In this document: positions 14,503-23,253 of the stretch, in pieces
How positions within the stretch are numbered: position 1 is the stretch's first letter
Layout: every line of letters starts with the position of its first letter
Source of the DNA: a virus
Reading direction: 5' to 3' (one strand)
Virus record (IMG/VR): IMGVR_UViG_3300021602_000025
Location: 1-23,578 of that record
Length of the DNA stretch: 23,578 nt
Translations under genes and position numbers: made by a program
The notes under the pieces: generated by a model
What the model was told of the DNA's origin: nothing
Databases searched by the model: none
The model's input: the letters and a program-made list of their open reading frames with translations, nothing else

Positions 14503-15591
14503 TTAGTCTAATAAAGAAGCATAGATAGCTGAAGAATTTAACATCAAGTTGATTTCTTCTTGACACTCAATACGAGCAGTTACCAAGTTCTTTTGGAAGT
14601 TAGTACCATTCTCATAAGAGAACTCAATTGCTAAAGATTCAACCTCAACTCTTTCAATGTAGTCTCTATCAATTACTAAAGCCTTGTTATTAGTAACCCA
14701 AGATGCAGAAATAACAGGTACACCCCAAATAGTGATTCCACCATTAGGATTAACCATAACTGATCCTGAACCTGCGTAGTAACCAGCAGTAATTGTGTTC
14801 TTCAAGATATTAGCCATATTTTGCTCACTTACCAATACATAAGATGCGTTGAAGTTTGCAGTCTTTTGGTTACCGATTAAATCAACTAATTGACTTAAGT
14901 AATCAGCACCTGTTACTGTTGTAACTCCTGTTGCAGCACCTGAAATAGTACCAAAGAAAGAAGCATTCTCTTTTTTAAAGAAATCTCTTTGTAACATTCT
15001 TGGTAATGTTTGAGTCAAGAAAGGTAATGACTTCAACATTTGCTTACTGAATGTAGAGAAACCTGCAAGGTATTCACTAACAACTTTAACTTCAGTTAAA
15101 GCGTAGTTATTTTGTCCTTTGTCATCTCCTTCAGTTTGAAATCCAATGTTGTTTGTTTCACCACTATTTTCTTGATAGTAAACATACAATCCTGTTGCAC
15201 TTCTAACTGTTGGAACTAAATCACGGAAGTTGATTTTTTGAGAAGGGTAGATTGCTTGATTTACTGCGTAAGTAGCAACAGGGTCTCCTGTTAAACTTGC
15301 AGATAAAGTCATTGTCTTAACATCTGATAAATCCATACGGAACTTACCATTCTTCTTCATTTGGCTTTCCATTTCGCCCATTTGACCATCCAATTTCTCC
15401 ATAATAACCTCATCCATAAACTTCGTTTGTTTAGATTCAGCTATTTTCTTTGAAGCGAATGCAGCATCAATTTGCTTTTGCATTTCATCTTTTACAACAT
15501 TGATTTCAGATTTAACTGAATCAATTTGAGCAGTTACATCGGCTTTAATGCCTTTGACATTTTCTGCCATTTCGTTAATTACATTTTCCAT
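14503..15591 (-). CDS. major capsid protein, HK97 fold, 362 aa
   Basis: The main shell protein. Residues 1 to about 85 are a charged helix (MENVINEMAENVKGIKADVT and onward), matching the N-terminal delta/scaffold region that HK97-type proteases remove. The rest has HK97-fold landmarks: YYQENSGETNNIGFQTEGDD (extended-loop region, about 138-157), a spine-helix region SKQMLKSLPFLTQTLPRML, ANILKNTITAGYY, IWGVPVISASWV (about 290-301) and a terminal ARIECQEEINLMLNSSAIYA. There is no separate scaffold gene in the window, consistent with a built-in one. The gene starts 2 bases after the protease stop and ends in a strong terminator. Confidence 0.92.
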   Translation of the reverse strand: MENVINEMAENVKGIKADVTAQIDSVKSEINVVKDEMQKQIDAAFASKKIAESKQTKFMDEVIMEKLDGQMGEMESQMKKNGKFRMDLSDVKTMTLSASLTGDPVATYAVNQAIYPSQKINFRDLVPTVRSATGLYVYYQENSGETNNIGFQTEGDDKGQNNYALTEVKVVSEYLAGFSTFSKQMLKSLPFLTQTLPRMLQRDFFKKENASFFGTISGAATGVTTVTGADYLSQLVDLIGNQKTANFNASYVLVSEQNMANILKNTITAGYYAGSGSVMVNPNGGITIWGVPVISASWVTNNKALVIDRDYIERVEVESLAIEFSYENGTNFQKNLVTARIECQEEINLMLNSSAIYASLLD

Positions 15592-15593
15592 TT

Positions 15594-16349
15594 TTACTTT
15601 TTAAATATTTTATTAAATTCACTAATTGCCTTCAGGATTTGTTCATCATTATTTTTAACTTCTTCGTTTATCGGCTCTGGTGATTTCTCGGTCAAAGTGA
15701 TTTCTTTTACGATTTCAATTTCTAATAAGTCTGCTTGAATCCTTTTTATTTCAATCTCCATCAACGCAAAGGTTTCATCTGTGAAACGACCACCTTTAAA
15801 CGCTTTCAAGAGTTTCTCTAGCCTGTTTGCTAATTGTTCCCTTTTAACTTCACTCTTAACTGAAATAGTTGGTGTTTCAGGGTTTGCTGCCCATAATACC
15901 GCACTACCTTCATAAAGTTTAAGTTCAGTTATTGTTCTAATTCCGTTCTTATCTACATTTGAATTTATTGTGCTAAATCCAATAGAGTGTTGATTGATAA
16001 GACCAGCATCGTACATCTTTAAAATGTCCTCTCCTGTTTCAGTCATTACTATTGGAGTGATTGCAATAAGCATATCGCCTTCAACATAAAGTTGTTCAGG
16101 CTTACCTATTACTGCTTCCATTTCAGCACAATGATCTACTAATGACCATATCAAGTTTTTACCTGCTGGACCTCTTTCATTAAGGGTTTTGGTAAATGCT
16201 TCAGGAACGATAATATCGTTATCTAAATCAATGTTACCTGTTCTTGCCCATACGGCTTTTACTCTGCGTTGTTCAGTATCAACATCCATTACCTCGTAAC
16301 CGATGTCTTGTTTTTCAACAATAGTATCTTTTGATGCGTAAGTTTTCAT
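15594..16349 (-). CDS. prohead protease, HK97-type (S78), 251 aa
   Basis: The maturation protease that cleaves the capsid N-terminal helix inside the prohead. The core is residues 15-165. It contains NIDLDNDIIVPEAF (39-52), the His motif VDHCAEMEAVIGK (His73), the Ser motif LINQHSIGFST (Ser122) and LYEGSAVLWAANPETP (145-160). His73 and Ser122 are the likely catalytic pair, with Glu147 a possible third member. The last 85 residues are a charged helical extension, likely a prohead-targeting or scaffold segment. It lies before the capsid gene, as is usual. The ATG at 16349 is 5 bases after a TAnnTTTG match. Confidence 0.9.
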   Translation of the reverse strand: MKTYASKDTIVEKQDIGYEVMDVDTEQRRVKAVWARTGNIDLDNDIIVPEAFTKTLNERGPAGKNLIWSLVDHCAEMEAVIGKPEQLYVEGDMLIAITPIVMTETGEDILKMYDAGLINQHSIGFSTINSNVDKNGIRTITELKLYEGSAVLWAANPETPTISVKSEVKREQLANRLEKLLKAFKGGRFTDETFALMEIEIKRIQADLLEIEIVKEITLTEKSPEPINEEVKNNDEQILKAISEFNKIFKK

Positions 16350-16374: not shown

Positions 16375-17253
16375 TTATTCTAATGCTTGAGCAATTAAAT
16401 TACCAATTTGCATTCCAATAGTATTTGTTATAAATCCCCAAATAGTTCCGACATTCCCTTTTGGTGGATTGTCTTGTAGTTTTAATAACTTACCATTTTT
16501 ATCTCTTAATGCCTCAAATCCTAATGTACAACGGCAATTACAAACATCACCAGCACTTCCACTTGAATCGCAAGGATGTAGCATAAAGTCAAAACCGCCC
16601 TTCTTATTTTGTAGTTTAAATGTCGCATCCATTGGTATTTTAGTTCCATCCATATTAAGATGGTCAAATTGATCTCTTGGAATCCTTCTAGTTCTATTGT
16701 CTTTTGCTGCAATCCATTCTTTGACAGTTACCAATCCTGTACTTGTAGCACCTACCATTGAACCGATATTAGCAGCCCTGCCTGTTTCCGTTCTAGCAAT
16801 AAGTTCAGCACGATAATCCGTTATCCCTGCCGTTTTTAATAATGCAATTGTTTCAGGCAATGTTAAGTTTTGCTCTGCGGATTGAATCATAAATCTTCTT
16901 ATCTGCTCTTTGGTAGTTTCGGTTATATCGGAAGCTAATTGGTCTAATCCTTGTGTTTCTAAATACTGAAGGATAGTATAAGCAAATAGGTCAGTTTCTG
17001 CTGATTTAGTCTCTATTGCCTCATAAATGCCCTTTGTAGACCTTTTAACGGCTTTACTTGATATTTGAGCCATCTTTACACCCATAGCCAAATGAAGTTG
17101 TTTAATGGTCTTCTTAATGGCTTTGTCGCTGATTGCGGAATAGTCTTGGGTACGACAATAAGTATTCACTTGGGTTTGCAGTTCTTTCTTGAACTTGGGT
17201 GAATAAGTTTTTAATCCGTTGGCATATAGTTTTCTATAATCTTGCCAAATCAT
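16375..17253 (-). CDS. minor head protein, Mu F / SPP1 gp7-like, 292 aa
   Basis: A head morphogenesis protein that binds the portal and is probably carried into or near the head interior. The N-terminal half is helical. The C-terminal domain shows the family motifs: ELIARTETGRAANIGSM (about 155-171), VKEWIAAKDNRTRR (about 177-190), HLNMDGTKIPMDATF (about 198-212) and the Cys/Pro end HPCDSSGSAGDVCNCRC (about 227-243). The NCRC motif is typical. Its start overlaps the stop of the Dps-like gene by one base (TAATG), so the two are made together. Confidence 0.88.
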   Translation of the reverse strand: MIWQDYRKLYANGLKTYSPKFKKELQTQVNTYCRTQDYSAISDKAIKKTIKQLHLAMGVKMAQISSKAVKRSTKGIYEAIETKSAETDLFAYTILQYLETQGLDQLASDITETTKEQIRRFMIQSAEQNLTLPETIALLKTAGITDYRAELIARTETGRAANIGSMVGATSTGLVTVKEWIAAKDNRTRRIPRDQFDHLNMDGTKIPMDATFKLQNKKGGFDFMLHPCDSSGSAGDVCNCRCTLGFEALRDKNGKLLKLQDNPPKGNVGTIWGFITNTIGMQIGNLIAQALE

Positions 17254-17615
17254 TATGATAAGGTTAAAAGGTATAAAGTTTGAGCAACTAATTGAGCAAT
17301 TTCATCCACTTGATTTTGTATCCAGCTTTCTTGATAAATAGTCTTTCTTTCTCTTTGGATAAAATCGTACAATGATTTATAATACTTAACCAATTGTTCG
17401 TGTCCTGTATAGTTTTGTAATGTCTCTACTGAATAGCCAACAGGTCTGCCGTAAACTCCGCTTACACTTTCCACTAATTCATCAATCAAACCTACTATCT
17501 CATCGTAATAATTGTTCAATGCCTTATGCTCTGCATAGGATGTAGTTTGGTGATGCCAAACAATTGATTGTTGCTTTGAATCGTGTAATTGACTTATAAA
17601 TTCTACAAATTGCAT
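17253..17615 (-). CDS. Dps/ferritin-like protein in the head module, 120 aa
   Basis: A 120-residue all-helical protein. Residues 19-61 line up with the Dps ferroxidase segment: VWHHQTTSYAEHKALNN, then YYDEIVGLIDELVESVSGVY and GRPVGY. His30, Asp45 and Glu49 are spaced H-x14-D-x3-E, exactly as His43, Asp58 and Glu62 of Listeria Dps. His21 or His22 would be the first ligand, on a loop 3-4 residues shorter. I recall the DUF5856 family of Bacteroidota phages as matching this. Possible roles are iron binding, oxidation protection or a structural four-helix part of the head. It starts one base after the portal stop and overlaps the minor head gene, so it is made with the portal complex. Confidence 0.7.
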   Translation of the reverse strand: MQFVEFISQLHDSKQQSIVWHHQTTSYAEHKALNNYYDEIVGLIDELVESVSGVYGRPVGYSVETLQNYTGHEQLVKYYKSLYDFIQRERKTIYQESWIQNQVDEIAQLVAQTLYLLTLS

Positions 17616-17616
17616 A

Positions 17617-19002
17617 TTAAGGTTTTATATTGTCAGGAATTATTAATGGTTGGAATTGGTCTATTGGTTGCAAAGAAGAAGGTACATAAAGTTTCTCCAT
17701 TTCCTCTTGTGGAATATAATCAGGTGTTTTTAATCCCATTATCTCCATCTTTTGTGCTGGTGCAATCCACCAAGCATTGTTTAACCAAGTAGTTTGGTCG
17801 GCTTTATTTGCTTCCAATTCTTGATAAACCTTAATATCATAATCAACATAAATATTAGTACCTCTATAACCCCAATCAGTATGTAGTTTTCTATTAAGAT
17901 TATCTCTTAATGAATCTAGTAAAGGAATAGCACAACGAAGTGTTAATGCCTTCTCGCCTTCTAATTGGTTGTTGTATGTTTTGCTTCCATCATCGTTTAA
18001 TAGTTGACTAGGCACTCCGTAAATATTACAAAGGGCTTTCATATCCCATTTCTCCGATTCTATGATATTTAATTCAACAGGAGACAAACCTATTTGTTTC
18101 CAATCTACTTTATATCCTGATACCGCAATTGAATTAAAGTTTGATGATCCACCTTTCTCGCTGATAGCCTTTTTAAGTGCTTGTGCTTGTTGTGTTCCAC
18201 TTGTAGGGTCAAACCTATCATCATTCATAAACAATACACCAGCAGGTCCACCATTTTGAAAGGATGCAACCGCAGCAGTTTTAGCTTCGTTACTTCTTGT
18301 CAATGTTCTTGCAGCAGCCATCAATGGACTTTGTCCGTACAATTGATTACCTGTTACATTCCAAGCTGGATTAAAGTATTTGTCGTGTAATATTTCTTTA
18401 GTATCAAATGACCATAATTTTCCGTAGTAAAGTTGATAACCAACTCTTACAGGTGGGAATAATTCTACATTGGCAATGATAGCCATATATTGAGCAGGAA
18501 GGGCAACTAATTCAAATGGTTTGCTTTGATTTGCACCGCCTTCTATTAGTTTTGCGTAGATAAATGAATTACCTACTATTAGTTTAAATCCGCACCATTG
18601 TTCTACTAGATCACTCCAAGTATCCTCGCCATTAGGATATTTCAATAACTCATTTAGTCTTTGGTCTCCTGTATAAATTTCAAATGCCTTTTTGTGTAGG
18701 TCGTTTACCTCTTGCCAATTGGTAATCTTATCAGGTTGTGCAATTAATGTCTTGTATCTTTTGGCAGCAACTTCATCGGTAATCTTATAAACATGAAATG
18801 GAGCAAGTTTTGCTTTATCCGTTATAAGTTTAACAATTGAGTAAACAATATCATTCTTTTGGTAGCCATCATTCACATATGATTGACCATTTGCACCTTG
18901 CCAAGTAACTATCCCTTGTTGTATTGCTATTTGCGAGTTGGTCGGAAATGTTGGTAAAATAGTATTTATCTTCTTCTTTGAGAAGAAATCAAGTAAACCC
19001 AT
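17617..19002 (-). CDS. portal protein, HK97-type, 461 aa
   Basis: The twelve-subunit ring through which DNA enters and leaves. The length (461) is usual for HK97-type portals. It begins MGLLDFFSKKK, then KNDIVYSIVKLITDKAKLAP (about 49-68), the stem-region segment GLSPVELNIIESEKWDM (about 305-321) followed by KALCNIYGVPSQLLNDDGSK, and a C-terminal domain with QEEMEKLYVPSSLQPID. The GVPxxLL motif after an LxxxExxW-type helix is characteristic. It lies 36 bases after the large terminase stop and has a TAnnTTTG element in that gap. Confidence 0.92.
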   Translation of the reverse strand: MGLLDFFSKKKINTILPTFPTNSQIAIQQGIVTWQGANGQSYVNDGYQKNDIVYSIVKLITDKAKLAPFHVYKITDEVAAKRYKTLIAQPDKITNWQEVNDLHKKAFEIYTGDQRLNELLKYPNGEDTWSDLVEQWCGFKLIVGNSFIYAKLIEGGANQSKPFELVALPAQYMAIIANVELFPPVRVGYQLYYGKLWSFDTKEILHDKYFNPAWNVTGNQLYGQSPLMAAARTLTRSNEAKTAAVASFQNGGPAGVLFMNDDRFDPTSGTQQAQALKKAISEKGGSSNFNSIAVSGYKVDWKQIGLSPVELNIIESEKWDMKALCNIYGVPSQLLNDDGSKTYNNQLEGEKALTLRCAIPLLDSLRDNLNRKLHTDWGYRGTNIYVDYDIKVYQELEANKADQTTWLNNAWWIAPAQKMEIMGLKTPDYIPQEEMEKLYVPSSLQPIDQFQPLIIPDNIKP

Positions 19003-19038: not shown

Positions 19039-20352
19039 CTAAAATACACTTACTTTAAATTTTGGTGTATATTCAAATATCATTCTCATTGCTAGGCAAT
19101 CACTAAAGTCAGGGGAACGACCGATGGCAGCTTTTACTTTATCCTTTGGTATAATTCCTTTTTTGCTATCATTATCAACTGACTTTTGTTTTACTTGCTC
19201 TAGTTCTTGAATGATTAATTGTTTTGTTTTTCCATCTGCTTGAATGTAAATATCCGACTTATTCATTACTTCGGATAACTTGAAATAACATTGTGATTTA
19301 AGGTTGTCAAAGTTTTCCTTTCCTCTTGTTATTGGGTTTTCTAATGGGGAACTATTATTGACAAATCCTCTGCAACCCCTTATCAGGTCAACGCAACCCC
19401 CTCCGACACCATCTTCATCTATGCAAATATTTGATACAGGTACTTTATGCTCTAAAGCAAAGTTCTTTATGAGTTCAGCGACCTCAACAACTGATTTACC
19501 ATTGAATTGATGAAGCCGAACACGAAACCCACTCCATATACCGATAACAGTACTATCGCTACCAAAGCGTGCCACATCACAAGTAATATAAGGATTACCA
19601 ATAGGCACAAAAGTATTGGTAAATGAATCAAGTATTTTATCATAGTCTATAAGTTGAGTAGGGTCGGATAAGTATTCCCAATTACCAAACAAAAGTCTTT
19701 CTTTGGAAACGGAATCAAGGGTTAATAGGTTTGCTTTGTAATGTTTAGATATGTAAGGGTTGTCATCAATTAACGATGAAATAAATCTTTTATTGTCTGC
19801 TATTGAATTGTCGGTTTGCGGTTTATAGAACTCCGAGTAAGTCCAATTCTTTGCTGGGTTACAAGTATAAAGAATCTTTGGTACCAATTCGTTTTGATCT
19901 AGTTGAAACCTTATCCTTGATTTGATAATATTCCTTGCTTTGTCATCTACTTGATTAGCCTCATCAATGAAGGCATCGGTTATTTCAAGTGAACCTAATT
20001 CATCAAAGTTTGGGTCGCTAGGATATGAATAAAGGTCTTTAAGTAGGATTGTTGAGCCATTAGGAAAGTCTATTGTTGATGATTGAGCATTAAACTTATA
20101 ATGTTTTCCTGATTCCATTCCTTGCATCTTTGCTACTTGAAAGAACGAAACAAGGGTAGTTTCTTTTAGCGTTTTAAGTACGGCACGACCAATTAATCCT
20201 CTTGTATTAGGATATTTTAGTCGTTGTTTAAGTTGCCAATAGCATCCAAGTAAAGTTTTACCACCACCAGCACCGCCTCCGAATAGTATTTCGTTTGTGG
20301 TTTTATCTTCTAATAGGTCAAGTGCAATAGTTTGTTTTATGGATAATTCCAT
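19039..20352 (-). CDS. terL: terminase large subunit, 437 aa
   Basis: The packaging motor and nuclease. The ATPase half has Walker A GGGAGGGKT (25-33), Walker B AFIDEA (127-132) and the coupling motif LYTCNPAKNW (161-170). The nuclease half has an acidic set: Asp259 in YITCDVARFGSDSTV, Asp312 and Asp314 in ICIDEDGVGGG, and Asp415/Asp418 in SPDFSDCLAM, which together fit the two-metal RNase H-like site. The length is normal. The start overlaps the small terminase stop by one base (TAATG). The portal gene follows. Clustering with known terminases could tell headful from cos packaging, which I cannot see here. Confidence 0.95.
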   Translation of the reverse strand: MELSIKQTIALDLLEDKTTNEILFGGGAGGGKTLLGCYWQLKQRLKYPNTRGLIGRAVLKTLKETTLVSFFQVAKMQGMESGKHYKFNAQSSTIDFPNGSTILLKDLYSYPSDPNFDELGSLEITDAFIDEANQVDDKARNIIKSRIRFQLDQNELVPKILYTCNPAKNWTYSEFYKPQTDNSIADNKRFISSLIDDNPYISKHYKANLLTLDSVSKERLLFGNWEYLSDPTQLIDYDKILDSFTNTFVPIGNPYITCDVARFGSDSTVIGIWSGFRVRLHQFNGKSVVEVAELIKNFALEHKVPVSNICIDEDGVGGGCVDLIRGCRGFVNNSSPLENPITRGKENFDNLKSQCYFKLSEVMNKSDIYIQADGKTKQLIIQELEQVKQKSVDNDSKKGIIPKDKVKAAIGRSPDFSDCLAMRMIFEYTPKFKVSVF

Positions 20353-20721: not shown

Positions 20722-21825
20722 TCACAAAGGTAATCCGTTCTTTTTGATTATTAAGTTTGGGTCAAGTTTAAGCATCCTATCTACGATAACTTGACAGTAC
20801 TTTTCACTCATTTCCATACCATAACAAACTCTTTTCATTTGATGTGAAGCTATCATTGTCGTACCTGAACCGCAAAAAGGTTCAAATATTAAATGGTCTA
20901 ATTCTGCAAATGCTTCAACTAATTGTCCATATAATTTAACAGGCTTTGGACAAGAATGAAATTCTCTTAATGATTTTCCGTGTAATTCCTCTTTTTCAAC
21001 CATTAATTCAATTACATCATTATCTAATTTTTTTCTTGGTGGTTCTAATATTAATATTGGTTCCCAAGTAGATGCACCTCCTACACCATTCCCAGCTTGA
21101 GCAAATTTCTTATACCAAACTGCTACTTTAGTATTTCCAAATCTTGATATATCCCTTGATAAATTCATTAAACCCGGTGTCCATACTTTTCCGCATTGAT
21201 GCAATGCAAATACATCAGCAACTAATTGAGCGTTAACATCACTATCATTATCCTTATGTTTGTCATATTCATAACCTATTCCGTAAGGTGGGTCAGTTAA
21301 AACTAAATCTGCTTTTCTGCCATTCATTAACTTATCAATATGTTCAGGATTTGTACTATCTCCACATAATAAACGATGCTCTCCAATCTCAATAATATCT
21401 CCATAAACAAATTGAGTATCTATTTCGTTAGGTATTTTAAATTCATCATCTTTAGACTCTAAAACTTCAGCATCAAAATTAGGAATATCTAAACCCCATT
21501 CTGTTAATTCTAAAGCATCCCAATTATTTGCAAGGTCATCCCAATCCCATTCACCATATCCGACATTATCTTTAACGATAAATTCTTTCTTTTGTGCTTC
21601 GCTTAAATTGTTAGCGTGAATTACAGGAACATCGGTTAACCCAGCTTCAATACAAGCCTTTAGCCTCATATTACCACCTAATACCATATTGTTTTCATCA
21701 ATGACAATTGGTCGGAGTTCAAGCATTTGGGGGAAATCTTGGATTGACTTTACAAGTTGTTTAAACTTAATATCCTTTATAATTCTAGGATTGTTTGGGT
21801 TTGGTTTGATTTCGTTGATTAACAT
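20722..21825 (-). CDS. ParB-domain / N6-N4 DNA methyltransferase fusion, 367 aa
   Basis: A two-domain protein. Residues 1-115 form a ParB/Srx-like domain: INEIKPNPNNPRIIK, then VIDENNMVLGGNMRLKA with the GGNMR motif (50-54), and helices to WGLDIPNF. Residues 135-355 form an amino-methyltransferase: VLTDPPYGIGYEYDKH with DPPY at 178-181, then FEPFCGSGTTM with the AdoMet FxGxG at 317-321. DPPY before FxGxG is the beta-class order. It would methylate the exocyclic amine of A or C. The target is unknown, and no partner endonuclease is seen, so it is probably a solitary phage methyltransferase for self-protection, or one acting near packaging. It is coupled by TAATG to the zinc-ribbon gene and lies next to the terminase. 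Confidence 0.9.
   Translation of the reverse strand: MLINEIKPNPNNPRIIKDIKFKQLVKSIQDFPQMLELRPIVIDENNMVLGGNMRLKACIEAGLTDVPVIHANNLSEAQKKEFIVKDNVGYGEWDWDDLANNWDALELTEWGLDIPNFDAEVLESKDDEFKIPNEIDTQFVYGDIIEIGEHRLLCGDSTNPEHIDKLMNGRKADLVLTDPPYGIGYEYDKHKDNDSDVNAQLVADVFALHQCGKVWTPGLMNLSRDISRFGNTKVAVWYKKFAQAGNGVGGASTWEPILILEPPRKKLDNDVIELMVEKEELHGKSLREFHSCPKPVKLYGQLVEAFAELDHLIFEPFCGSGTTMIASHQMKRVCYGMEMSEKYCQVIVDRMLKLDPNLIIKKNGLPL
20725..20732 (-). promoter_or_regulatory. weak candidate -7 element before terS
   Basis: The minus strand reads TACCTTTG, overlapping the last codons of the methyltransferase gene, 25 bases before the small terminase start. It matches TAnnTTTG, but it is coding (Leu-Pro-Leu region) and has no -33 TTG. 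Confidence 0.25.
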
Positions 21826-22524: not shown

Positions 22525-23253
22525 TTAACTTGTACACGAACAACTAAATGCTGGACTTAAATCGGTAAGGTCTTGCCCTTTAAATAAATCGTTTTGTGCG
22601 TAGTTTAGTAATTGTTTGTAGGTTGTATCTTGAAAGTATGTATGTCCTTTACCTTTTGATTTGCTTAATTCCTCATCTTCAATCCATTCGGTTGCTAATT
22701 CAGGATATGACCTTAAAATATTAATTACTGCATTTTTACCTTTAAGAAAACATAAAGTGCAGTTTCCTAATATAGCTGGAATTTCCAAAGTGTAAGGTTT
22801 TTTACTCCAATAGTCATTAACTTGTGCCTTATCAATACCTTGTTCGTATAAAGGGAATACAGGATATATGTAGGCTTGTCGTTTCTCATATCCTTTAACC
22901 CTTCGCTCCTCATCTGCCCTAAATCCTACCATCCACTTATAATCTTGTTTACCATAGTTTGCCCTTAACCATCTTTTAGCGGTTTTAATCTTTAGTTCAA
23001 TCGTACATTCCCTTTTAACTCTATTAGGTATTAATCTCCATTTCTTATGCTCTAGCATACCCCTAAATCCACCTTCATAACTTATTCTTGTTACAGGTAT
23101 ATTTTCGTATGCCTCAAAGTCATTAATGAATTTGTATGTTTTTGGATGTTCTCTTTGGGTATCAGTAAATAAAACAATATCCCCTTCACGATAGTTCATT
23201 ATTGTCATCAATGCACTTGTCTTGCCTCCGCTAAAATTTATTACCCTTTGCAT
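22525..23253 (-). CDS. PAPS-reductase-like PP-loop protein, 242 aa
   Basis: A member of the adenine nucleotide alpha-hydrolase (PP-loop) superfamily in the PAPS reductase/DndC-like group. The PP-loop is SGGKTSALM at residues 8-16, then LFTDTQREHPKTY (28-40). Cysteines are at 83 (RECTIELKIK), 165 and 168 (GNCTLCFL), and 238 and 240 at the end (FSCSCTS). A set such as Cys83, Cys165, Cys168 and Cys238/240 could bind a 4Fe-4S cluster, as in related sulfur-transfer enzymes. The substrate is unknown. Sulfate assimilation is possible, but so is a DNA or RNA thiolation-like role, given the methyltransferase nearby. The start overlaps the 44-aa membrane gene by 23 bases. Confidence 0.8.
   Translation of the reverse strand: MQRVINFSGGKTSALMTIMNYREGDIVLFTDTQREHPKTYKFINDFEAYENIPVTRISYEGGFRGMLEHKKWRLIPNRVKRECTIELKIKTAKRWLRANYGKQDYKWMVGFRADEERRVKGYEKRQAYIYPVFPLYEQGIDKAQVNDYWSKKPYTLEIPAILGNCTLCFLKGKNAVINILRSYPELATEWIEDEELSKSKGKGHTYFQDTTYKQLLNYAQNDLFKGQDLTDLSPAFSCSCTS

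Follow-up and report, generated by a model that had tools for sequence, protein, structure and literature searches.

A predicted mini-Dps protein of the DUF5856 family in an accessory slot between the portal and MuF genes of a phage

What does a short gene with Dps-like residues do between the portal and minor head protein genes of a phage? An earlier note on this DNA had pointed to residues of the ferroxidase type in the product of such a gene, and had suggested that a small ferritin-like protein is made at the time and place of head assembly. The window (the whole analysed stretch of 23,578 nucleotides) encodes this product, here called mini-Dps, on the minus strand, the plus strand of 17253–17615 being full of stops. 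The gene and its surroundings are as follows:

19039..20352, minus strand: terminase large subunit gene (Terminase_3, E 2.9e-11)
17617..19002, minus strand: portal protein gene, upstream neighbour of the mini-Dps gene (Phage_portal, E 5.7e-37)
17613..17619, minus strand: junction of the portal stop and the mini-Dps start, TAATATG, with a 1-base gap, read from the sequence
17253..17615, minus strand: DUF5856 / PHROG_858 mini-Dps gene, 120 amino acids, start ATG at 17615–17613, stop TAA at 17255–17253
17251..17255, minus strand: junction of the mini-Dps stop and the MuF start, TAATG, with a 1-base overlap, read from the sequence
16375..17253, minus strand: MuF-type minor head protein gene, downstream neighbour (Phage_Mu_F, E 4.4e-9; PHROG_2468, E 1.3e-34)
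15594..16349, minus strand: prohead protease gene (Peptidase_S78, E 9.7e-11)
14503..15591, minus strand: major capsid protein gene, HK97 type (Phage_capsid, E 2.8e-14)

The MuF gene is followed by the genes of the prohead protease and the HK97-type capsid, and then by connector/neck genes. The linkage of the mini-Dps gene to the portal and minor head protein genes is tighter than had been claimed, with a single base between the first two genes and a single shared base at the other end; given the TAATATG and TAATG junctions, translation of the portal, mini-Dps, and MuF genes is probably coupled. Upstream of the terminase genes, the window also contains a DNA methyltransferase gene (20722–21825), whose product matches ParB-like proteins weakly at its N-terminus, and a gene with a PAPS-reductase domain (22525–23253); a relative of the latter is also seen near DUF5856 in loci L038, L095, and L111.

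The family assignment of the window protein is unambiguous at the level of profiles. It matches Pfam PF19174 (DUF5856) with E 1.5e-20 and 74.5 bits, the curated cut-off being 34.6, and PHROG_858 with E 4e-20 (residues 3–119 aligned to profile positions 15–127 of 129). Membership in the Pfam ferritin/Dps family, in contrast, does not hold: the window protein has no ferritin match at E values up to 1, and ferritin is not one of the 25 Pfam families shown for alignment A2, whose members (45/45) all match DUF5856. The NCBIfam search yields no real match, with only two members touching Dps models at about E 0.03, and none of the individual sequences in the set passes the models of Dps or ferritin. 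Relatives of E. coli Dps, sought in IMG/VR by peptide patterns, were not found there.

Pfam gives DUF5856 no function, and a literature search found no mention of the family. Judging by the PHROG_858 label, “starvation-inducible transcriptional regulator,” annotators seem to have met a Dps-like match before. Relatives are found by tblastn in 1,224 phage records, mostly of T4-like and Ackermannviridae phages, and IMG/VR holds at least 545 relatives; the T4 member is rI.-1 (MobD.6). A scan of a genome collection gives one match, on a 4.8-kb contig of a Taylorbacteria bin, hence no host assignment. In 21 loci (L034, L048, L052, L104, L128, and others) DUF5856 has a conserved N-terminal extension of about 50 amino acids, which is probably a coiled coil with an acidic linker and possibly a targeting segment; no tag common to these extensions and the other (head) proteins of the same loci was found. 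In two further loci (L043:852–1380 and L045:888–1416) DUF5856 is fused to an N-terminal zinc ribbon (CANCGWHW...CHKCGFDN).

Comparison of profiles and of structures nevertheless points to Dps. The profile–profile comparison of DUF5856 with seven Dps proteins gives a score of 32.1 (E 1.5e-4 for this single comparison; probability 52%), the top score among 200 column-shuffled controls being 19.1. In a profile search of PDB sequences the top match is Helicobacter NAP, a Dps (E 0.0019), while the single-sequence search of PDB yields nothing convincing, with the Dps 2d5k at E 0.089. The AlphaFold2 monomer of the window protein is a four-helix bundle (pLDDT 96.2, pTM 0.90) with helices at 3–23, 27–55, 72–89, and 97–118; the BC helix is absent from the model, there being no helix between 55 and 72. 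Foldseek matches in PDB are at the top mostly Dps, with probability up to 1.00 (for E. coli Dps, TM 0.79 and 2.7 Å); the best E value is 0.059, with no match below 0.05. The Dps-like four-helix protein of the earlier note is thus borne out by the AlphaFold2 model, by Foldseek, and by the profile–profile score with its shuffled controls. Foldseek against the viral library gives 11 predicted proteins that pass E 0.001. As a separate observation, the BFVD matches A0A481ZC29 and A0A7D3V608 (Pithovirus LCPAC404 and Fadolivirus) have predicted structures similar to the mini-Dps fold, with TM of about 0.8, and the fold may also be present in giant viruses of eukaryotes.

The residues that carry the comparison with the Dps iron site, and one family-specific residue, are encoded at:

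17553..17555, minus strand: His21 codon, aligned with Dps His31 (Listeria) / His51 (E. coli), invariant in all four alignments
17526..17528, minus strand: His30 codon, aligned with Dps His43 (Listeria) / His63 (E. coli), invariant
17481..17483, minus strand: Asp45 codon, aligned with Dps Asp58 (Listeria) / Asp78 (E. coli), invariant
17469..17471, minus strand: Glu49 codon, aligned with Dps Glu62 (Listeria) / Glu82 (E. coli), invariant
17304..17306, minus strand: Asp104 codon, helix 4, a family-specific, near-invariant acid with no fixed Dps counterpart (134/136 rows; one Gln, one gap)

His21, His22, His30, Asp45, Glu49, and Gly56-Arg57-Pro58 are all present as described earlier, and the H-x14-D-x3-E pattern of Dps is matched exactly by H30-x14-D45-x3-E49. 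This pattern arises in 1.5% of shuffles of the protein and in one of 64 window ORFs of at least 60 amino acids; by itself the spacing is weak evidence, a fair lead from one sequence and not proof. The ligand set stands above chance because it is conserved across the DUF5856 family. His21, His30, Asp45, and Glu49 are invariant in 45/45 diverse viral-contig members (A2), in every non-gap row of 136 family ORFs, and in all 14 rows of alignment A4, which adds T4 rI.-1, LIMEstone1 ORF78, and five other phages at 24–38% identity; here, down to 24% identity, they make up four of only seven invariant columns. When five DUF5856 proteins are aligned jointly with two Dps proteins, only five columns stay invariant, the four ligands and one Gly. 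Four of the five residues of the Dps ferroxidase site are kept as DUF5856 invariants. Neither a fold other than a four-helix bundle nor loss of the His, Asp, and Glu residues in homologs, either of which the earlier note regarded as refuting its claim, was found.

Residues shared by the window protein, T4 rI.-1, and the Ackermannviridae members in A4 are His21, Thr24, His30, Asp45, Glu49, and Gly53; Asn101 is family-specific, like Asp104, among the 136 ORFs. The profile–profile register with E. coli Dps pairs His21 with His51, His22 with Trp52, His30 with His63, Asp45 with Asp78, and Glu49 with Glu82. Two elements of the original description were rejected: His22 as a ligand, since its column is variable (H/N/F/W/Q) and aligned with Dps Trp52; and the “GRP” segment as special evidence, since Arg57 is kept in close relatives and lost in distant ones.

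Two departures from Dps had been missed. His21 and His30 are 9 residues apart (most Dps have a distance of 12), and Asn34 stands where Listeria Dps has Asp47, in a column that has D/E in 36/135 family rows, T4 rI.-1 among them. Due to the shorter spacing and Asn34, the putative iron site of the window protein may be incomplete. Phage zth2-2 (L084) has HLMTTGPGSFAAH with the 12-residue His spacing of Dps, while the other members aligned in A4 are cut to 9; its sequence bridges the DUF5856 and Dps families.

The expectation that His30, Asp45, and Glu49 cluster in the monomer fails: all three lie on helix 27–55, with His30 about 22 Å from Asp45 (15 residues along one helix at 1.5 Å per residue), hence, these two are unable to meet within a chain. 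The ferroxidase site of Dps is split across a two-fold dimer, so that the same check would fail even for a genuine Dps. The match of the residue register with Dps suggests an intersubunit site of the Dps type, in which two antiparallel subunits would pair through helix 2, as in Dps, and iron would be bound where His21 and His30 of one chain come together with Asp45 and Glu49 of the other.

As judged from profiles and the predicted fold, the window gene is a phage-specific shortened Dps homolog (DUF5856), its product descending from the Dps/ferritin line. The protein probably works like Dps, although it is assigned to DUF5856 and fails several Dps-defining features. With Dps of E. coli, Listeria, and Helicobacter (NAP) it shares the predicted four-helix bundle, the equivalents of His31/His43/Asp58/Glu62, and the identical H-x14-D-x3-E; it differs in length (120 amino acids), in the His–His spacing (9, not 12), in Asn for Asp47, in lacking the BC helix and a basic tail, and in being unmatched by ferritin/Dps HMMs. 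Bona fide phage Dps (from Lactobacillus, Streptomyces, “Gratiaviridae,” and Campylobacter CP220 phages) are likewise phage-borne proteins of the Dps superfamily; however, these match bacterial Dps directly, whereas DUF5856 is phage-specific, shorter, and head-linked. The Lactobacillus phage gene is reported near DNA metabolism genes (PMC6669764). T4 rI.-1 and LIMEstone1 ORF78 share the full-length DUF5856 / PHROG_858 profile with the window protein at only about 27–34% identity, and differ in location: rI.-1 belongs to the lysis-inhibition operon and ORF78 lies within a group of unknown structural genes, while the window gene is in the portal–MuF slot.

Expression together with head genes, as proposed earlier, is supported by the junctions and by head-module neighbours across the family. 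Among 136 DUF5856 loci, the order portal–DUF5856–MuF is seen in 54, and the portal is on one side in 4 more; an XkdF-type head protease adjoins in about 24; a connector upstream together with a small “YPW” protein downstream is seen in 10; and a DUF6321 gene is nearby in about 29. Given these differing neighbours, the DUF5856 gene has joined head modules of at least three different, unrelated make-ups. In one head-module group (L066, L070, L068) a small conserved protein, ..YPWDQCVADQTERYGDEETAKKVCGAIK.., is encoded downstream of DUF5856; it matches no known family.

The portal–MuF junction is an accessory slot, and the mini-Dps is not needed for head formation. In 117 distinct close relatives, selected by portal or MuF, the portal abuts MuF with no insert in 87, DUF5856 fills the slot in 24, and another small gene does so in 6; these counts refer to 4-kb flanks, and the genomes of the relatives may have a DUF5856 gene at another site. 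In the tree built from 108 portals, the slot label changes at least 5–7 times (gains or losses). The earlier suggestion of a structural four-helix part of the head is, hence, not sustained for a core part, since 87/117 relatives lack the gene in the same operon. Some T4 stocks carry a natural frameshift in rI.-1 (PMC8573959), consistent with dispensability.

Other genes are seen in the same slot. One, of about 130 amino acids (..YGKWFLGID..KQHWHYIYTSDF.NVDRAGLIAIRQRAGQQ..; L152, L156, L186, and others), lies between portal and MuF alone or after DUF5856, and has a weak match (E 6e-4) to residues 1–105 of phrog_34096, a head maturation protease in PHROG, as if a domain fused to a protease also existed as a protein of its own. 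Another, of about 125 amino acids and ending in ..CPSKRDISLKNWAYNPSK (L260, L278, L172), matches DUF3140 (E 1e-4) and DUF6321 (E 0.04) below threshold.

Homologs have been detected in virions. ORF78 of Dickeya phage LIMEstone1, a family member with all four ligand residues, was found in virions by mass spectrometry with 3 unique peptides and 28.21% coverage (PMC3296691, Table 2); the LIMEstone1 record has a putative late promoter directly upstream of ORF78, and the unknown structural proteins of this phage all have structural counterparts in phage ViI (PMC3296691). In CsCl-purified virions of Klebsiella phages ValerieMcCarty03/04, gp108/gp100 gave 26/27 peptide-spectrum matches, above the authors' virion-protein cut-off of 15 (PMC13119998, Table 3); gp108 of OR106137 is the rI.-1 ortholog, adjoining rI and sharing 32% identity with the window protein. 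The samples yielded 153 and 135 proteins (PMC13119998), so that carry-over is possible as the source of the signal. The detected homologs belong to other phage families, at about 31–34% identity to the window protein; by way of these homologs in LIMEstone1 and ValerieMcCarty03/04 virions, rather than from the window phage itself, a virion-borne mini-Dps, as suggested earlier, is plausible. In the parts of the virion papers on phiPD10.3, phiPD23.1, and phiD3 that were consulted, the DUF5856 protein is not named. The late-promoter motif TATAAATA is found once just upstream of T4 rI.1 and once just upstream of the matching gene of ValerieMcCarty03, counts that are within chance.

On balance we favour an accessory, virion-associated mini-Dps that binds iron. 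Such a protein would be produced late, alongside the head proteins, and would travel in or on the virion as an accessory component; there it would bind or oxidise Fe(II), remove peroxide or loose iron, and limit Fenton chemistry, so that packaged DNA or the first steps of infection would be protected. DNA coating through a basic tail, in the style of E. coli Dps, would have no part in this role. With a pI of 5.0, a net charge of −7, and no more than 8 Lys/Arg, the window protein is acidic; its first helix begins at residue 3, and a basic N- or C-terminal tail is absent, hence, DNA binding or Dps-style coating is unlikely. A genuine Dps dodecamer, binding phage DNA and condensing or shielding it, as the PHROG label suggests, would agree with the Dps homology seen in the profile–profile and Foldseek comparisons, and with the classing of gp108/gp100 as DNA-associated by the ValerieMcCarty authors (PMC13119998); however, the same charge, the scarcity of Lys/Arg, and the lack of basic tails argue against it, and we consider it highly improbable.

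The main rival is a late protein that stays in the cell: a mini-Dps that would bind metal in the cytoplasm and keep oxidative damage down or adjust lysis timing, with the virion peptides explained by carry-over. It seems unlikely to us, although host cell protection is the usual proposal for phage Dps proper (PMC8008677; PMC6669764), and T4 rI.-1 is in the rI operon, its overexpression slightly extending lysis inhibition (PMC6832632). Against it are the 26/27 spectra above the cut-off in CsCl-purified virions (PMC13119998), the separate detection of ORF78 in LIMEstone1, and the repeated location of DUF5856 beside portal, protease, or connector genes in head modules; a role in lysis timing also fits poorly with phage RaK2, which has a homolog and neither T holin nor RI antiholin (PMC3622015). 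These head-module neighbours in several architectures, together with portal/MuF junctions suggestive of co-translation and with the invariant Asp104, Asn101, Thr24, and Gly53, which have no ligand role in Dps, would also suit a non-catalytic four-helix protein that attaches to portal, MuF, or capsid and adjusts assembly or the packing of the genome, its H/H/D/E set being a structural (e.g., Zn) site or internal salt bridges. We find this rather improbable: 87/117 otherwise similar head modules do with the same portal and MuF and without the gene, and the family invariants are the iron ligands of Dps, not a new set.

The virion-associated, iron-binding mini-Dps can be extended, tentatively and with more doubt than confidence, from this locus to the whole widespread family, T4 rI.-1 included: the members might be virion-borne miniature ferroxidases, iron-binding mini-Dps proteins that enter the cell with the phage DNA, and the portal–MuF junction of one large group might be an optional slot for virion cargo. 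What the analysis adds for DUF5856, an orphan family of more than 1,200 phage genomes, is that it keeps the iron-site residues of Dps, that its genes are linked to head genes in unrelated phages and can be dispensed with, and that its products can be detected in virions; T4 rI.-1 is otherwise known by a vague lysis-inhibition phenotype only. The question raised is whether phages ship an iron-handling protein with their DNA, which is testable in laboratory phage T4 via rI.-1, and which bears on the source of virion iron and on the survival of packaged DNA in oxidative hosts.
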